Of a stretch of 64,000 nucleotides of DNA, positions 21,915 through 51,648 are shown one piece after another. A program made the position numbers and the translations under genes. The DNA is taken from NCBI RefSeq assembly GCF_028401385.1, contig NZ_JAQOMR010000001.1, forward strand, positions 2,420,501-2,484,500, in the 5' to 3' direction. Within the stretch, counting starts at the first letter, position 1. The number at the start of each line of letters is the position of its first letter. Source of the DNA: Marinicella algicola (GTDB lineage Bacteria; Pseudomonadota; Gammaproteobacteria; Xanthomonadales; Marinicellaceae). The notes beneath the pieces are model-generated. The model worked only from the letters and a program-made list of their open reading frames with translations, was not told where the DNA came from and ran no database searches.

Positions 21915-21934
21915 TGCTATAAGACTGCCATGAT

Positions 21935-22020
21935 GAGCGACGGGGGCGTCCGCTTTTGCGGGCTGAGAAGCACCCTTGGAACCTGATCCGGATCATACCG
22001 GCGGAGGGAGTCACTCGGGC
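21935..22020 (+). ncRNA. TPP riboswitch (THI element)
   Basis: The conserved THI-box segments are present in order: CTGAGA at 21963-21968, then ACCCTTGGAACCTGATCCGG, and ATACCGGCGGAGGGA to about 22010. These form the pyrimidine-sensing and pyrophosphate-sensing helices. The element lies about 55 bases before thiM and should repress thiM-thiE-thiD when thiamine pyrophosphate is abundant. The intervening bases include CCGGCTTTCCCGCC and GAAAGGGAAACCGGG near the start codon, which could form the regulatory stem that hides the ribosome binding site (inference). Confidence 0.93.
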
Positions 22021-22075
22021 CTTTCCTCAATCTGGCCCGACCGGCTTTCCCGCCACAAAAGAAAGGGAAACCGGG

Positions 22076-43260: not shown

Positions 43261-44537
43261 TCAACCGTTGCTCCCGGCCGGCTTTTTGCGCGCGGCCTCC
43301 TTTTCAAGCACCGCCTCGGTGATTGAGTTCGGTATCCGGGTTGGCTTCTCGACCAGTCCCAGCACCGGCATGATCACAAGGAAGAACCCGAAATAGAACA
43401 GCGTTCCAAGCTGCGACATCACCACAAAGACGCCCTCGGCAGGCTGTGAGCCAAGCCAGCCAAGCAGAACCGCATTGGCAACGAACAGCCAGAAGAACAG
43501 CTTGAACCACGGACGATAGGATGCGGAGCGAACCTTGGAGGTATCGAGCCAGGGCAGGAAGAACAGGATGATGATCGAGCCGAACATCACCAGCACGCCG
43601 CCGAGTTTGGAATCGATCGGGCCGATGTCGAAGGTGATCGCTCTCAGCATCGCGTAGAACGGCAGGTAATACCATTCGGGAACGATATGGGAGGGCGTCT
43701 TCATCGAATCAGCCGGAATGTAATTATCCGGATGGCCGAGGAAATTCGGCATGTAGAACACGAACCAGACATAGGCGATCAGGAAGATCGTCACCCCGAG
43801 CGCGTCCTTGAGGGTCGCATAGGGCGTAAACGGCACGGTATCGCTCTTCTGCTTGACCTCTACACCGGTTGGATTGGTCTGCCCGGTCACATGCAGCGCC
43901 CAGACATGCAGAACCACAACGCCGGCGATCATGAAGGGCAGCAGATAGTGCAGCGCGAAAAACCGTTGCAGCGTCGGCTCACCAACGGCAAACCCGCCGA
44001 GCAGAAGTTGCTGGACCCAGTCGCCGATCAACGGAAAGGCGGTGAAGAAACCGGTGATCACGGTCGCGCCCCAGAACGACATCTGGCCCCAGGGCAGCAC
44101 ATAGCCCATGAAGCCGGTCGCCATCATCAAGAGATAGATCACGACGCCGAGCATCCAGAGAATTTCGCGCGGTGCCTTGTAGGACCCGTAATAAAGCCCC
44201 GGGCGATATGCAGATAGACCGCAATGAAGAAGAAAGAGGCACCGTTTGCGTGCATATAGCGCAGCATCCAGCCATAATTCACGTCCCGCATGATCTTCTC
44301 GACCGACAGGAAGGCGGCGGACGTGGAGGAGGTGTAGTGCATGGCCAGGACAATGCCGGTCGCGATCTGCACAATCAGCATCACCGAAAGCATGGCGCCG
44401 AAGGTGTAGGCGTAATTCAGATTGCGCGGTACGGGATAGCTGACGAAGCTGTCATACAGCATGCGGGGCAGCGGCAGGCGCGTATCCACCCATTTCGACA
44501 CACCATTCTTCGGCACATAACTCGAGTGTCCACTCAT
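43261..44537 (-). CDS. petB: Cytochrome b of the bc1 complex, frameshifted
   Basis: About 425 residues, eight membrane helices, fused b6/subunit-IV type. Conserved points: [14 protein letters not shown], the first heme histidine pair in [41 protein letters not shown], and the Qo-site [15 protein letters not shown]. The frame breaks in CCCC at 44197-44200; adding one base gives [20 protein letters not shown]. It catalyses quinol oxidation in respiration. Without the correction the essential complex would be inactive, which argues for a sequence error. Confidence 0.95.
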
Positions 44538-44553
44538 GATTCAGTCTCTCCCC

Positions 44554-45132
44554 TCAACCGATCCTGATCACAGTGTCGGACGTAAATTCGTATAGCGGTA
44601 TGGCAAGGTTTTGCGGCGCGGGGCCTTTGCGGATGCGGCCCGCCGTATCGTAGTGCGAGCCATGACAGGGACAGAACCACCCGCCGAAATCGCCGGCCTG
44701 ACCGAGCGGGATACAGCCGAGATGGGTGCAGGACCCGATCATGACGATCCAGTTTTCGTTGGATTCGCCAGCAGAGCGGTCAACATCGGTTGCCGGAGAG
44801 CCTGAAGGCAAGTTCTCGTTGCGTGCCTCGGGATCCTTGAGTTCGGAAAGCGGCACCTCCCTTGCCTCTTCGATCTCGCGCTCTGTGCGGTTGCGAACGA
44901 AGACGGGCTTACCGCGCCATTTCACCGTCAGTGACATTCCCGGCTCAAGGCTGGAAACATCCACTTCAACGGTCGAAAGGGCCAGCGTCGAAGCATCGGG
45001 CTGCATCTGGTCGATGAACGGCCAGGCAACAGCTGCCGCTCCCACTGCCGCAGCCACGCCAGTCGTCAGATACAGAAAATCACGCCGGGTCGGTTCGCCG
45101 GAATGATCCGTCGAAACAGTCTCGTCTTGCAC
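44554..45132 (-). CDS. petA: Rieske iron-sulfur protein of the bc1 complex
   Basis: About 192 residues: twin-arginine start [21 protein letters not shown] (anchor), then the 2Fe-2S domain with [11 protein letters not shown] and [10 protein letters not shown]. The start is a GTG at 45132 because GGAGG lies seven bases upstream; no ATG is available at the usual N-terminus, and the longer frame upstream lacks Rieske character. It is first in petA-petB-petC and the Tat substrate of the complex. Confidence 0.94.
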
Positions 45133-45400
45133 CGCTATCCCTCCATCAGCTGATGCCGTTGCCTGCGGTGACGTCCCTCCTTCGCATGGTTTGCGAAAGC
45201 GCCTAGGCAACGTTCATATGATCGCCAAGTTTTATGCGCGATTACTTTCGATGTCCAGTGTTTGACCTATTTCAATAACAGGCAAGAGGCAAAGAAAAAA
45301 GTCTGTGAAATTCAGACCCTTCTTGACGTTTGCGAAGCAATCGAAACACGCCTCATTTTCCAACTACGGATAGTCTGGACGAGACATCATACGACGCAGC
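45133..45400. other. Intergenic region upstream of petABC, no gene seen
   Basis: The 268 bases between the petA start and the end of the ABC exporter are moderately AT-rich. They should contain the petABC promoter near petA and the 3' end of the exporter transcript, but I see no strong hairpin or recognisable operator. Confidence 0.4.
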
Positions 45401-47272
45401 TTAAGCGTCCTCGTCGCCCAGTTCCGGCAGAAAACCTCCGGACTGGCGGGCCCACAGCGAGGCATAAAGCCCGCCCAATCCGATCAGCGCGTCATGGGTA
45501 CCCTCCTCGACGATCTCGTCCCTTGTCCATGACGATCAGCCGGTCCAGCGCCGCGATGGTGGAAAGCCGGTGGGCGATGGCAAGCACGGTCTTGCCTTCC
45601 ATCAATTTCATCAGATTGGCCTGGATTGCGGCCTCAACCTCGGAATCGAGCGCGGACGTGGCCTCGTCCAACACCAGGATCGGCGCATCCTTCAGCATCA
45701 CGCGCGAGATCGCGATGCGCTGACGCTGACCACCCGACAGCTTCACCCCGCGTTCTCCGACATAAGCATCAAGTCCTTTTCGCCCGCGCATATCGGCAAG
45801 ATCGGCAATGAAACTGTCAGCTTCCGCCCGTTCGACAGCCTCCCACAGCATGTCATCATCGGCGTCTTCATTGCCAAAACGGATGTTGTCGCGGATCGGG
45901 CGGTGCAACAGGCCTGTGTCCTGGGTGACCATGCCGATCTGCGCGCGCAGGCTTTCCTGTGTCACGTCGGCAACGTTGTGGCCATCGATCAGAATTCTTC
46001 CCGTGTCGATGTCATAGAAGCGTAGCAGCAGATTGACGAGCGTGGACTTACCCGCGCCCGAGCGGCCAACGATGCCGACCTTCTCCCCGCCGATACCTCG
46101 AGCGACAGATCGCGGATCACGCCCTTGCCGCCGTCATAGCCGAAGCTGACACTATCGAAGCGAACCTCGGGACTGCGCAGGACAAGCGGCACTGCCTCCG
46201 GCTTGTCGACAAGTCCGATCGGTTGCGAGATCAACTCGGCCGAGTTCTGAATGGTGCCGATGGCGCGCATGATGCCGTTAAGCTGCATCATCAACCGCCC
46301 GAGCAGCATGGAAAGCCTCAGCGAAAGGCCGAGCGTGAAGGCGACATCGCCAGAGGAAATATCACTGGTGAACCACAGATGCACAGAAAAGGCGGCAATC
46401 GCCGTGATCATCACGCCGGACAGCAGGCTGAGCGAGGCCCTGACCCCGGTGATCAGCCGCGTAAACGCCTGGACACGGGCGATCAGCCGCTCGAACCCGC
46501 GACGCATGTAGCCGTCATTGCCATCGTCGCTGCCGAACAGCTTGAGCGTCATGATATTGGAGAAGGAATCGACCATCCGCCCGGACATCATCGAATTGGC
46601 CTCGGCCAGTTCACGGGCGTTTTCGCGGATGCGCGGCACGAAGAACCGCGCCAAAACGGCAAACACCACAATCCAGAGCGCAATGAGCGCTGCCAGCCGC
46701 CAGTCAAGCGCTGCCACCAGCGCCATGGTCGAGATCGCATAGATTGCCATGAACCACACGACCTGCAGAAGTGACGACATCAAATCGCCGATCGACTGCC
46801 CCGCAGCAGACACCTTGGTGACGATCCGCCCTGCGAAATCATTCTGGAAGAAGTCGAGCGACTGGCGCGCAACATAGCGATAGGACTGCCAGCGCACCAG
46901 ATTGTTGAATCCGGGAACAATGGTCTGTTCCTCGATCAGCATCTGCAATGTTGTCAGGCTAACCCGGACAACGACCATGGCGAAGGCCATGCCGATCAGC
47001 ACCCAGCCATACTCGGCCATCAGCCCCGACCAGCCGGCCTCACGCGGGATGCTATCGAGAATATCGATCAGCACGCCCATGAACCAGAATGAGGCCGTTT
47101 CCATGACCGCGACACCGCCGCCGACCACAAGCATGGCGAAGAACGGCCATTTGGCCTGACGCAGGAAATACCAGAGAAACGGCACGAGCTTCTCGGGCGG
47201 CCGCTCCGGCGAGCGCGCGGCCAGCGGATCGATCCACCGCTCGAAAAGTTCTGCAATGCGCTGAAATATCAT
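45401..47272 (-). CDS. ABC exporter (TMD-NBD fusion), second of a tandem pair, frameshifted
   Basis: About 622 residues: six-helix membrane domain (for example [36 protein letters not shown]) and NBD with Walker [10 protein letters not shown], signature LSGGQRQR, Walker [12 protein letters not shown] and H-loop IAHRLST. One lesion lies at 46095, just before Walker A, and one at 45520; the second, once corrected, gives [20 protein letters not shown] and a stop at 45401. Start at 47272 ([13 protein letters not shown]). All ATP-site motifs are consensus, so it can act alone or pair with its upstream neighbour. Substrate unknown. Confidence 0.9.
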
Positions 47273-47334
47273 GATGAAAAGAGATACAGGGATTCGCGTT
47301 CCGCGCAAACGCGCAATTATCGTTTGATCAAAGA

Positions 47335-47364
47335 GAACGGGCCCACCGATCAGCGGGCCCGTTC
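47335..47364 (-). repeat. Inverted repeat between the two tandem ABC exporter genes
   Basis: GAACGGGCCC and GGGCCCGTTC form a ten-base-pair stem with a ten-base loop in the 96-base gap. On the minus strand it is followed by TCTTTGATC, only weakly T-rich, so it may be an attenuating or stabilising hairpin rather than a full terminator. Confidence 0.6.
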
Positions 47365-47368
47365 ATAT

Positions 47369-49221
47369 TCATTCGGCTGCTTCTCCGGCGACAATGTCGT
47401 CTTCGGCAAGAAAGCCGCCGGACTGGCGTTTCCAGAGATCGGCGTAGATACCGCCGGCCTCGGCAAGCTGCTGATGCGTGCCGGTCTCGATGATCTCACC
47501 CTTGTCGAGGACCACGAGCCGGTCCATCTCTGTCAGCGTCGACAGCCGGTGGGCAATCGCGATCACGGTCTTGCCTTCCATCAGCCCGAACAGGCTTTCC
47601 TGAATGGCCGCCTCGACTTCGGAATCGAGCGCCGAGGTTGCCTCGTCCAGCACCAGGATCGGCGCGTCCTTCAGAAACACGCGGGCAATCGCGATGCGCT
47701 GGCGCTGGCCACCGGAAAGCTTCACACCACGCTCGCCGACATGGGCATCAAGGCCGGTGCGGCCCTGCAGGTCAGAAAGCCCTTCAATGAACTCCCAGGC
47801 ATTGGCGCGTTTGGCCGCGGCAATCACCTCCTCATCGGTTACGCCCGGACGGCTATAGGCTATGTTGTCGCGGATCGAACGATGCAGCAGCGAGGTATCC
47901 TGCGACACCACACCGATCATCGAACGCAGGCTGTCCTGCGTCACATCCGAGACACTCTGACCGTCAATAGTGATGCGCCCGGCCTCCAGATCGAAAACCG
48001 CAGCAGCAGGTTCATCATCGTGGTCTTGCCCGCGCCGGAGCGCCCGACAAGGCCGACCTTCTCGCCCGGTTTGATGATGAGCGAGAGACCGGTGATCACA
48101 CCGCCCTGCTTGCCGTAGTGGAAGGAGATATCGTCATAGACGATCTCGCCCTTTTCACGACAAGTACGGGTGCATCCTCGACATCGACCAGTTCGTGCTT
48201 CTTCGCCATCATCGACATGCCGTCATAAACCGTACCGATGTTTTCAAACAGCGCGGTAACTTCCCACATGATCCATTGCGACATGCCGCCAATGCGCATC
48301 ACAAGGCCGAGCGTCAGAGCAATGGCGCCGATGGTGATGCTCTCCTCAAGCCAGAAGCGGATCGCCAGCGCGCTCACTGCGAACAGCGCGACCGCATTGT
48401 TGAGGTAGACCAGAGCCTGAAGCTGGGTTACCCGCCGCATCTGACGGTAGACCGTCTCGAGGAACCCATCCATGCCTTCGCGCGCGAACAGCTCCTCGCG
48501 TCCGGCATGCGAGAACAGCTTGACGGTGGCGATATTGGTATAGCTGTCGACCACCCGCCCCGTCATCAGCGACCGGGCATCGGCCTGATCTGCCGAGATC
48601 TTGCGCAGACGCGGAATGAAATACCACAACAACAACGCATAGACCACGATCCACACCAGAAGCGGAATGACGAGACGCTTGTCCGCCGCCGCGACAATGA
48701 AAATCATCGAGACGAAATAGGTGATGACGTAGACGAACATGTCGAGCGCCTTCATCACGGTTTCACGGATAGCCAGCGAGGTCTGCATGACCTTTGCGAC
48801 ACCCGCCCCGCAAACTCGTTGGCGAAGAAGTTCATCGAATGACGCAGCACATAGCGGTGCATCTGCCATCGGCTGATCATCGGCAGGTTGCCCAAAAGCA
48901 CCTGATGGATCAGCAGCGAGGAAAAGATCGTCAACGCCGGCAGCAGCACCAGCACCAGCGCGCCCATAAAGGCAAGGCGCCAGCCTTCGTCGGCCAGGAA
49001 GGTTGACCGATCGGCCGTCGACAGCCAGTCAACGATGTCACCGAGAAAGCGGAACAGATAGACTTCCCCGAAAGCCACCAGCGCGGCCACGAAAGCCATC
49101 ACCGCCAGATAGGGGGCGGCAGGCTTCGAATAATGCCACAAAAACGGGATCAGCCCCGTGGGGGTGCGGTGGGCTCTGCCTCGGGATAAGGATTGAGGCG
49201 GTTTTCAAACCAACGAAACAT
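47369..49221 (-). CDS. ABC exporter (TMD-NBD fusion), first of a tandem pair, frameshifted
   Basis: About 617 residues with an N-terminal MFRWFENRLNPYPEAEPTAPP, six helices and an NBD ([32 protein letters not shown]). Four frame changes (near 49163, 48810, 48160 and 47998) split it; the first is a lost G in CGGGG and gives PRGLIPFLWHYSKPAAP. It shares the domain plan of the next gene and could form a heterodimer with it. An 18-residue leader ORF and hairpins precede it, suggesting inducible expression. Substrate unknown; MDR-like. Confidence 0.88.
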
Positions 49222-49302
49222 AATCGGACTCCAATGACCCCCGGCTGCCCTCAAACGCAAAGAGCACAAGGCATCCGCACAAACGGATCCGGGACAGGAA
49301 CG

Positions 49303-49375
49303 GCGGCCGTTCAAACGGCCGCGCTAATTCAGATGATTAAATAGGAAACAAGAAGGGCGTGTGAAAGGTCACACG
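49303..49375 (-). promoter_or_regulatory. Attenuator-like hairpins between leader ORF and ABC exporter
   Basis: Read on the minus strand: CGTGTGA-CCTT-TCACACG (49358-49375) overlaps the leader stop codon, and GCGGCCGTT-TG-AACGGCCGC (49303-49322) follows. Neither has a T-run, so they look like switchable RNA stems rather than terminators. Stem alternatives cannot be worked out reliably by eye. Confidence 0.5.
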
Positions 49376-49425
49376 AGACGGCGACGCGGTGGAACGCGGA
49401 GCAATTCAAAGCCAGTGATGTTCAT
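49369..49425 (-). CDS. 18-residue leader peptide upstream of tandem ABC exporters
   Basis: A short frame MNITGFELLRVPPRRRLV begins at ATG 49425 and ends in TGA. It is preceded on the minus strand by AAAGGAG at good spacing, so it is probably translated. The tail VPPRRRLV combines a di-proline with three arginines and fits the +x+ pattern that stalls macrolide-bound ribosomes. It lies 147 bases before the exporter start, with hairpins between, as expected for translational attenuation. The peptide itself matches no protein I know; coding status is inferred. Confidence 0.5.
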   Translation of the reverse strand: MNITGFELLRVPPRRRLV

Positions 49426-49651
49426 CCTGCCGTGCTCCTTTCGCCGGTTTGAGAAAAGCCGGGCCGTTATAGCCCCATCCGTCTGGATTGGCCATAGCCC
49501 TTGCCCGGAGCCCGAGGTTTAGTGCAATTATGTTGCCTCTCGGCAACGCCCTTTGCGGCACCTGAAATGATTTTTGGACACAGTCCGGTGTTGTGTCGCT
49601 TGCAGGTAGCCGTGTTAGATGGGCTGAGAATCATCCTTTGAAAGGACAGAA

Positions 49652-51648
49652 GTGTTCGGGAAAGCACGCTGGCTCCACAATCTCGCTTTGCTGAAGCCAA
49701 CCCCTTACCGACCGTGGCGTCATTCGATCCGGCTGTCGCTCGGCACCGGACTGCCGTTGCTGATCGGCGAACTGAGCGGCCATCCGGTGCCGATGCTCTA
49801 TGTCGCGCTGGGTGGCTTTCTGGCAGCCGTGACCGTGCGCCTCGATCCTTATCGCGAGCGTTTCCGCCAGCTTGGCATCTCCGCGCTGATCGGTGCAACG
49901 GGGTGCCTGATCGGCCCGGAAATCGGTGAGCACGGCCTAGCGACCATTGCGCTTTTGATGGCGGTCGGCCTCATTTCCGGCCTCATCAGCGGCTATGGCG
50001 CTGCATTTTCCACCGGGGCGCTCAACATGCTGGTGCTTGCCGTGGTCAATGCCCATGCTCCGGCGGCCATTCCGGCATGGCTGGTTTTATAAATTTTCTC
50101 GCCGGTGCGGGTTTTGTGGCGGCGATGCTCGGCATCGGCGCGTTGTTTGAGCGCGACCGGCCCGAACGGCGCATGCTCTCCGACATTGTCGGCATGCTGG
50201 CGCGTCTCGCCCGCGCCTCCGAGGCAGCAGGAAAGGCCCCGACGCCGGAAAACCGCAGCCAGATGATCGCAGCGCGGCGCGCGCTGGCGGATGCCACCAA
50301 GACCGCCTATGCGACGCTGATCGAAAAACGAAGCCACGGACGGGCGCGCACAAGATACACGCTGAGAACCGCGGCCGTGCTTTCACTCGTCAACCAGCTC
50401 TCAATGGCAATCATCGCCGCGCGCGGCAGCGAAATGGAAGCGACCGCGCGACAGCTCGACGCCATTGCCGCCGCCTATATGACCCGCGCCCGGCGGCCAT
50501 CCGACGCCGCGTCAGACGATAGCGGCGCGCATGAACCGGACCGGCTTGTTGCGCGCCTCGCCGCGGCGATGTGGCCTTCATCATCCGCAGCCGACACGGC
50601 TGGCGACGCTCTGCCCGACACCGCACACGACGCCGTCTTTTCCGCCGGTCTCGTCAAAAGGATCGCACGCCGCCTCGTCCTCGGTCGCGAGGTCGTCATT
50701 TCTGCCGTCAGGCTGTCGCTCTGCATGGGGTTGGCGGTTGCCGTCAGCCGCCAGATCCCCGGCGATCACTCCTACTGGCTGCCAATGACCGTCGCTATCG
50801 TACTCAAGCCCGATTTCGGCTCGGTCTTTCTCCGGGCGATCCACCGCAGCCTCGGCACGCTCGTCGGCGTCGCCATCGCCCTTTCACTTGCCGCCGTCGT
50901 TCCGAAGGGCCTCGCGTTCATACCGGTCATCATGGTGCTCTGCGCCTTCATTCCGTATGCCGTTCTGCGCAGCTATGCCGTGATGGTCACCTTTCTGACG
51001 CCCGTCATCCTGCTGATGATCGATCTGGTGGCACCGGGACCGGCCGCAAGCTATGATATTCAGAGGCTTGCCGACACAATCGCCGGCTCCGTGATCGCGC
51101 TCATATTCGGCTACCTGATCTGGCCTCGGTCGCAGGAAAAGGAACTTGGCAAGGCATTTGCCGACACGATGCTCAAGGTAGGCGCATTTCTCGCCGCGGC
51201 AACCGTACCCAAGCCTGAAGATGAAACCGGGCTTGCGCAGCTGCGTCAAACCCTCCTCAGCAGTGAATTTACAGCCTCGCGGGCTCTCTCCGACCTTCGC
51301 ACCGTGCTCGGCCGCCTGGTTGCCGAACCTCCACCTGCTGGTCGCGAAGCCGCCTCCTGGTTTCCGGCGGTCGCCGGCGCCGAAAGGCTTTCCGACGCCA
51401 TCACCGTTTATGCGGAGGGACGCCGACTCGGCGATCCACCGCCTGATGCCGAGCGCGCGCAACGTGCCCAAGCAGCACTTGCCGCCATTGCAGGTGTCGG
51501 CAAGCCCGCAGATGAAGCCAACGGGCGAGAAAAGGATGATCATTTCGGTGAGGTCGAGGCAGAAATCGCCTGGATCCGGAGCTATCTCAAGCGCAGGCCA
51601 GGCACCAAGCAGGCTCAGCCGACATCGCCCGAACCGGTTCTCAGATAG
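49652..51648 (+). CDS. FUSC/YccS-type membrane protein, frameshifted
   Basis: About 665 residues: an N-terminal six-helix FUSC domain (PLLIGELSGHPVPMLYVALGG, GALNMLVLAVVNAH), a cytoplasmic stretch, and a second FUSC block (SYWLPMTVAIVLKPDFGSVF, FIPVIMVLCAFIPYAVL). Such proteins resemble the fusaric-acid resistance and aromatic-acid exporter AaeB. A GTG start at 49652 follows AAAGGA. One lesion near 50080 breaks the frame within the first membrane block. The 3' end overlaps the AraC gene tail to tail by 34 bases. Confidence 0.87.

Follow-up and report, generated by a model that had tools for sequence, protein, structure and literature searches.

A covarying RNA leader around a short open reading frame upstream of a rhizobial ABC exporter pair: a candidate attenuator reporting ribosome initiation

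Described uORF attenuators and the exporter leader

Inducible efflux in Gram-negative bacteria is usually attributed to transcription factors. Here we consider a short open reading frame (ORF) and the RNA around it on the minus strand of a 64,000-nucleotide stretch of contig NZ_JAQOMR010000001.1 (assembly GCF_028401385.1; the whole stretch is termed the window), where they precede a pair of ABC exporter genes and had been read in an earlier note as a probable ribosome-stalling attenuator. The closest described system is the upstream ORF (uORF) of duf1127_1 in Sinorhizobium meliloti (sORF26), an attenuator experimentally shown to be relieved by tetracycline and to be independent of its peptide, and probably dependent on Rho, the latter being inferred by its authors (PMC12218461, which is followed here and below as far as its accessible text goes). 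In that system a predicted hairpin joins the ribosome-binding site (RBS) of the uORF to its first ten codons, replacing C-rich codons by synonymous ones leads to derepression, a 45-nucleotide (nt) element with 38% C and 18% G follows the uORF stop, and the single candidate intrinsic terminator does not act (PMC12218461). Further systems of related layout, again as given in the accessible parts of their sources, are: 1) toiL, a uORF before topAI of Escherichia coli, which senses several classes of ribosome inhibitors and has Rho downstream (PMC12121999). 2) BmrB/bmrCD of Bacillus subtilis, in which a leader ORF with an intrinsic terminator inside bmrB precedes an ABC exporter pair of the multidrug resistance (MDR) type, bmrCD being induced by translation inhibitors (PMC4191407). 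3) CruR, a copper uORF that likewise couples a uORF to Rho (PMC9426467). 4) peTrpL/rnTrpL of S. meliloti, a rhizobial leader peptide tied to a multidrug efflux operon, a setting like that of the exporter leader (PMC7298713).

In the window the leader comprises the following features, with P1, P2 and P4 denoting helices and SD a Shine-Dalgarno site.

49466..49471, minus strand: -10-like hexamer TATAAC, read from the sequence, with TATAAG at the same place in loci L032-L036
49441..49446, minus strand: 5' arm of P1, CGGCGA, just upstream of the leader SD; found by permutation tests and a window-pair scan
49434..49441, minus strand: leader SD, AAAGGAGC, with AAAGGAG at 49441-49435
49438-49434, minus strand: 5' arm of P2, GGAGC, part of the leader SD; found by permutation tests
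49369..49425, minus strand: leader ORF of 18 codons, MNITGFELLRVPPRRRLV plus TGA, with the ATG at 49425 and the TGA at 49371-49369
49398..49402, minus strand: 3' arm of P2, GCTCC, in codons 8-10, an anti-SD within the leader ORF
49379..49384, minus strand: 3' arm of P1, TCGCCG, in leader codons 14-16, with covariation as for the 5' arm
49358..49375, minus strand: stop-codon hairpin P4, CGTGTGACCTTTCACACG (CGTGTGA-CCTT-TCACACG), terminator-like in a scan
49324..49368, minus strand: the 45 nt after the stop, a candidate second attenuation or rut (Rho utilization) element, with 29% C and 9% G
49322-49316 with 49309-49303, minus strand: GC-rich stem GCGGCCG/CGGCCGC, where both partners of two pairs differ among the seven Martelella-type sequences
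49273..49288, minus strand: stem ATCCG/CGGAT, with two pairs changed on both sides
49221..49232, minus strand: exporter SD GGAG (49232-49229) to the start codon, whose A is at 49221, the same protein start as in the intact orthologue of locus L034

The 18-codon ORF with its SD, the stop-codon hairpin, the GC-rich stem and the 147 nt from the leader stop codon to the exporter ATG are all present as the earlier note had read them; P1, in which 49446-49441 pair with 49384-49379 and which encloses most of the ORF, had been missed, as had P2. The hexamer TATAAC would put the transcript start shortly before the 5' arm of P1; a sigma-70 promoter scan of the leader region returned 0 promoters.

The exporter leader shares with the duf1127_1 system a uORF before the gene, whose SD can form pairs with C-rich codons near its start, and, less distinctly, a C-rich, G-poor stretch after the stop; the peptide, unimportant in duf1127_1, seems here to be only weakly constrained. 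It differs from it in that the leader precedes ABC exporters rather than a DUF1127 gene, is mostly 15-23 codons long as against 29, and has the covarying outer helix P1, which is absent from the description in the accessible text of PMC12218461 and is not established at duf1127_1 loci. In toiL the uORF region masks the RBS of the target gene (PMC12121999, accessible text), whereas in the exporter leader the pairing involves the uORF's own SD, and release of the exporter SD is not supported. Unlike bmrB, the exporter leaders are not enriched for an intrinsic terminator, though the hairpin of the window is terminator-like. The peTrpL peptide is the product of the trp attenuator and, by its description, reaches the efflux operon from another location (PMC7298713, accessible text); the likeness is one of setting. 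Our best reading is that the leader belongs to the uORF-attenuator kind, with duf1127_1 as its nearest member, plus an outer helix.

By a DUF1127 protein search, duf1127_1 orthologues were recovered in 7 of 24 genomes, none of them being that of the window, and in 6 of the 7 loci the uORF SD can pair with early codons at -12.0 to -19.3 kcal/mol, values that have no control beside them. The S. meliloti 4H41 locus has a 29-codon uORF 249 nt upstream, matching the numbers implied by the accessible text of PMC12218461, and the pattern quoted there located the leader, with 2 mismatches, in one of three Sinorhizobium genomes, that of S. medicae. A GTGCGCCTC core was seen by eye both in a duf1127_1 search locus (L250) and in Rhizobium leaders.

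Conservation of the frame, the helices and the codons

An ortholog search with the exporter found 363 loci, and all figures given out of 80 refer to the best 80 of these, drawn from Martelella, Rhizobium, Sinorhizobium/Ensifer and others; they do not represent 80 independent events because the loci are related, and two of them (L037 and L039) are contigs of a single Pleomorphomonas metagenome-assembled genome. A leader ORF was defined as one with an ATG start, 12-30 codons and an SD-like site, situated 140-330 nt upstream of the exporter. Such an ORF is found in all 80 loci as against 56 of 1600 dinucleotide-shuffled upstream sequences (3.5%), with a distance of 201-220 nt to the exporter in 66, so that the recurrence in rhizobial orthologues which the earlier note had suggested looking for is borne out. 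In a wider set of 114 loci it was present in 43, and 11 of the other 71 gave candidates when the search reached 900 nt (600 nt for some); a covariance model of the leader start, termed R1, found further leaders in genomes more distant than these, about 380-700 nt ahead of the exporter. Two side observations concern the frame itself: L118 and L120 share a different 18-codon leader ORF, MRIRFGCYPPGIPRMRAA, about 252 nt before the exporter, and in S. meliloti 4H41 (L060) a 55-codon frame overlaps the 18-codon ORF, starting from a second ATG 4 nt ahead of that of the leader.

For selection on the frame, locus pairs were chosen by exporter similarity, and 38 of 44 remained after removal of 6 with unequal leader length. 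The nonsynonymous/synonymous ratio was 0.71 in the leader frame (bootstrap 0.58-0.87), compared with 0.97 (0.72-1.26) and 0.98 (0.71-1.41) for the remaining two frames and 0.11 in the first 100 codons of the exporter, which suggests weak purifying selection on the leader as a coding frame. A previous choice of pairs by leader similarity, with a ratio of 0.87, was biased and is superseded. Counting of indel frames across the leaders was uninformative on coding, and the openness of the frame over 45 nt by itself says little, because frame 2 is also open in 83 of 102 sequences as against 98 for frame 0.

The strongest signal in the RNA is P1, which joins bases just before the SD to bases of the last codons or just past the stop. 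For the structure tests L141 and L183 were dropped at contig ends, and L118, L119, L120, L123, L126, L175 and L223 were left out by eye as their ORF looked unrelated; the remaining leaders were clustered at 75, 65 and 60% identity over the leader start into 49, 35 and 26 representatives, to which related clades still contribute because clustering went no further than these levels. The following lines of evidence bear on P1: 1) None of 2000 permutations matched it at 49, 35 or 26 representatives. 2) In an unguided scan of 597 window pairs it ranked first, with z -6.0 (mean of all pairs -0.05, standard deviation 1.11), followed at some distance by others such as P3, a hairpin near the end of the ORF (z -3.5); with 597 tests only P1 therefore stands out by itself. 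3) Of the 35 representatives, 25 have an ungapped helix of at least 6 base pairs, where 200 permutations gave a mean of 13.8 and a maximum of 21. 4) The arms differ in sequence and remain complementary, as in CGCGAACCG/CGGUUCGCG (L095), AUCGCCA/UGGCGAU (L058), AUCGUCAG/CUGACGAU (L096), CCCGUGAGC/GUUCACGGG (L158) and CGGCGA/UCGCCG (the window). 5) Within the seven Martelella-type sequences two of its pairs are changed on both sides. A P1-like helix can also form in the 11 more distant leaders that were folded (-10.1 to -21.0 kcal/mol), a range given with no permutation control.

In the same seven sequences 81.2% of cells in the stems overall pair, compared with 77.0% after shuffling (0/500), and 6 pairs are changed on both sides as against 2.9 (9/500); the stop-codon hairpin P4 is paired in 90.5% of cells with no compensatory change. 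The covariation expected for the stems of the leader RNA is thus found, with the difference that the helix carrying most of it was not on the list from which the expectation came. A search of Rfam at the gathering score with 20 of the 80 loci gave 0 matches, and for the leader region of the window at E<=5 the best was a sub-threshold match to the L31 leader.

The leader SD can in addition pair with its own C-rich codons 8-10, a helix (P2) that is supported less strongly than P1. It brings together GGAGGC-like letters of the SD and GCCUCC-like letters of these codons, with the start codon in the loop, and its letters shift jointly from clade to clade, Martelella having GGAGC/GCTCC and one group of Rhizobium GGGAGCGC/GCGCTCTC. 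The observed mean pairing was reached by 2 of 2000 permutations with 49 representatives and 17 of 2000 with 35, and by 0 of 2000 in another permutation test with the 49; neighbouring codon windows, tested for pairing with the SD in the same way, gave no signal. Covariation within A2 was reached by 1 and 19 of 500 shuffles on two measures and by 90, 118 and 497 on three others, and is limited because the SD side hardly varies. Codons 8-10 consist of 51% C, and C exceeds G there in 45 of 49 representatives. The codon usage is in line with such pairing: among 105 distinct leaders 74 have leucine at codon 9, encoded by CTC in 57, CTT in 16 and CTG in 1 (CTC or CTT in 73 of 74), while the leucines at other positions of these leaders use TTG 67, CTG 59, CTC 40, CTT 23, CTA 4 and TTA 1 times, and CTG is the most common leucine codon at the exporter start. 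This bias constrains bases and therefore points to base pairing. Control by pairing would explain a leader peptide that drifts with its frame, start and codon 9 retained, and an Arg-Leu-Pro-like motif can then be a shadow of base pairing, which calls for caution in sequence-based prediction of stalling peptides.

Regulatory readings

We incline, if only slightly, to the view that the leader is a 5' attenuator of the exporter operon, in which a structured RNA around the short ORF would report ribosome initiation and not a drug-stalled peptide. By analogy with the duf1127_1 uORF, and if the leader is translated, ribosomes passing under normal conditions would unmask the C-rich codons and the post-stop stretch for a termination factor, probably Rho, and the resulting termination would keep the exporters low. 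If an inhibitor held ribosomes at the leader start, or if too few of them could load and P1 and P2 formed, the C-rich element would be covered and transcription would continue into the exporters, a presumed direction of effect in which translation stress induces them. The leader RNA may in this way be a built-in gauge of the cell's protein-making capacity. In 43 of 49 representatives C is more frequent than G over the 45 nt that follow the stop, the G minimum falling 20-40 nt past it. That a family-wide RNA fold precedes these exporter genes suggests that the state of the ribosome itself exerts control, without a drug-specific peptide.

Several points weigh against this attenuator. The folding energy is ordinary, with z -1.41 for window positions 49342-49459 (20 of 200 shuffles fold as well) and a mean z of -0.85 for the 49 leader representatives versus -0.92 for equally long DNA just upstream, and because thermodynamic stability is ordinary the structural case rests on covariation. 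The resemblance of the post-stop stretch to duf1127_1 is soft because C also exceeds G in 38 of 49 representatives in the rest of the intergenic stretch, nearly as often. The P2 signal drops to 114 of 2000 permutations at 26 representatives; in the window-pair scan P2 came eighth (z -2.9) and alone would not survive correction; and of the 11 more distant leaders retaining the ORF, 9 have it as a weak helix (-4.6 to -9.9). The weak in-frame selection may leave room for a role of the peptide, and the stop-codon hairpin of the window is terminator-like. Full-leader folds of duf1127_1 show the SD hairpin in the best structure only for L249 and L254, with no permutation control, and R1 did not connect the two kinds of leader, no duf1127_1 leader being among the matches listed for G744 at E<=1. 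We found no paper naming the exporter leader in the literature within reach, with subscription journals and supplements outside it. PMC12218461 may touch its operon, which would count in favour of the attenuator: in its accessible text two translated small ORFs precede SM2011_RS23660, the first large gene of an ABC multidrug operon that is among the 30 most tetracycline-induced genes. The identity of that operon with the present one could not be confirmed, though the overlapping frames of 18 and 55 codons in the S. meliloti 4H41 leader would agree with two small ORFs.

Among the alternatives, an arrest by the nascent peptide, in which an R-[LV]-P(-P) core would stall the ribosome near codons 9-10 in a RAPP-like or macrolide +x+ manner and the stall would switch the RNA, is in our judgement unlikely. 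Its basis is the recurrence of Arg8 (70), Leu9 (74) and Pro10 (53) among the 105 distinct leaders, the excess of R-x-P-P (5 of 49 representatives versus a shuffled mean of 0.6) and of PP (9 versus 4.2), and the weak in-frame selection. Four of the five R-x-P-P rows are, however, of the Martelella type (the window, L034, L035 and L157), and the codon-level constraint at Leu9 explains the core as an anti-SD. The peptides vary widely, as in MTVLMLTRLPRVTRPFLA (Sinorhizobium), MNILLYVRLPAMMPSSAIFRR (Rhizobium) and MDISVTVNLRVMWLRPVRTASHR; LRVPPR occurs only in the window and L032-L035, with LRVPPF in L157, and the Martelella loci L036 (LLVSPRR) and L038/L041 (LGVLPVR) have lost it; of these, L036 and L038 keep the ORF without the motif. 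The Pro-Pro and Arg-Arg-Arg tail that had been put forward as a feature of the leader is accordingly not kept (RRR in 1 of 80 loci), and the +x+ site lacks clear enrichment, being present in 15 of 80 loci and in 18 of 49 representatives against a mean of 14.5 for shuffled peptides (25 of 200 shuffles as high). The Arg-x-Pro-Pro of the Martelella leaders recalls the RAPP-type peptides ApdA, ApdP and ApcA, but it is RVPP or RLP-x and is not conserved; no RAPP or RGPP occurs in the 105 leaders, and RVPP is found in Martelella-type leaders only. In the accessible text of PMC12992588 the Ala of RAPP in ApdA and ApdP can be replaced fully by Gly and partly by Ser, Asp and Pro, with Val giving a partial effect for ApdP in B. 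subtilis only. We had ourselves taken peptide arrest as the main reading while LRVPPR in four Martelella loci looked RAPP-like, and gave it up when wider leaders proved to keep only R-L-P-like codons, the usage of which points to SD pairing. What stands of the earlier note is that a leader ORF and its RNA pairing are conserved ahead of the ABC exporters and plausibly form a translation-stress attenuator; stalling by a specific peptide is not supported, with the tail not conserved, selection weak and codon 9 constrained as a codon.

Translational attenuation of the Erm/toiL type, in which stalling in the leader would refold the RNA and free the exporter SD, appears decidedly unlikely. In the predicted ensemble base pairing covers most of the exporter SD (mean unpaired 0.21 over 49 representatives), and toiL of E. 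coli acts in this manner (PMC12121999, accessible text). Against it, a modelled ribosome changed the accessibility of the exporter SD in no consistent direction in the 49 representatives (codon 9, 7 up and 2 down; start, 4 up and 7 down; stop, 2 up and 3 down), and windows near that SD pair best within the intergenic stretch and not with the leader (z -3.2 and -3.4), no covarying partner in the leader standing out. Very unlikely, too, is a constitutive 5' structure that would serve mRNA stability or low leader initiation without any signal: it agrees with the ordinary folding energy, but the SD, ATG and frame are kept with in-frame selection and the arms of P1 covary between the SD side and the stop side. 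Both a bmrB-like terminator and an erm/toiL-like SD release thus lack good support, the former because terminators are not enriched and the latter because SD release is inconsistent. A scan of 49150-49700 in the window did give 4 terminator-like sites against a shuffled mean of 1.0 (standard deviation 1.2), two of them overlapping versions of the stop-codon hairpin. Ribosome-controlled intrinsic termination at that hairpin is the least probable of these explanations, since such sites near the stop occur in 9 of 49 representatives (18%), compared with 11.7% of shuffles and with 11 of 46 for a control stretch lying more downstream, and the tail of the window's hairpin is T-poor at its start (CCCTTCTTGT).

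Wider occurrence and genome context

The model R1 was run in 101 genomes with stricter filters and at E<=0.1 gave 41 matches listed in 33 genomes, of which 20 were inspected and 10 of these lie before the exporter. Of the inspected others, L235, L236, L238 and L241 seem to be a single recurring site that lacks a leader ORF, L242 and L244-L247 fall at the start of longer ORFs or within them, and L243 was assigned to neither group; further copies of the leader may occur elsewhere among the 21 matches beyond these 20. We would tentatively entertain, with rather less belief than doubt, a recurrent rhizobial RNA module in which a uORF with its SD hidden in its own codons (P2) sits inside P1 and gauges ribosome availability before unrelated genes, namely the ABC exporter pair and, for at least P2, duf1127_1. 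If this were so, Gram-negative bacteria would have in it a translation sensor for efflux that does not depend on a peptide, is conserved family-wide and is not in Rfam.

The genes of the operon and its surroundings in the window are as follows.

47369..49221, minus strand: first ABC exporter, broken into several frames in this assembly
45492..47308, minus strand: second ABC exporter, split over two frames, with 32% identity to the orthologue of the first exporter

The orthologue of the first exporter in L034 is a single open frame of 618 amino acids, to which two pieces from the window are 93% and 91% identical, and an exporter fragment of the window is 95% identical to M. radicis. By sequence the exporter falls with MsbA/P-glycoprotein-type transporters, a grouping that names no substrate, and any substrate assigned to it would be presumptive; a search of NCBIfam with the window's exporter fragments listed no model at its cut-off. 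Over 43261-49221 (minus strand) both exporters and a cytochrome b gene are each split over at least two frames where relatives have long single frames, for which scattered single-base assembly errors are the likeliest cause. The cytochrome b piece is 96% identical to Martelella radicis, as against 46-51% for the tested members of the assigned family and order, and the assigned family of the window's genome looks wrong by this comparison. Together with the exporter fragment, this piece marks the window as Martelella-like.

On the other side of the leader, a divergent neighbour at 49652-51648 (plus strand) matched YccS/YhfK-type transporter models below their cut-off (50077-51648). An ORF of 146 amino acids at 49652-50092 overlaps the start of this neighbour and may belong to it, read in a different frame. 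The sole Rfam match of the window is a thiamine pyrophosphate (TPP) riboswitch at 21932-22026 (plus strand), with 66.4 bits and above the gathering score.

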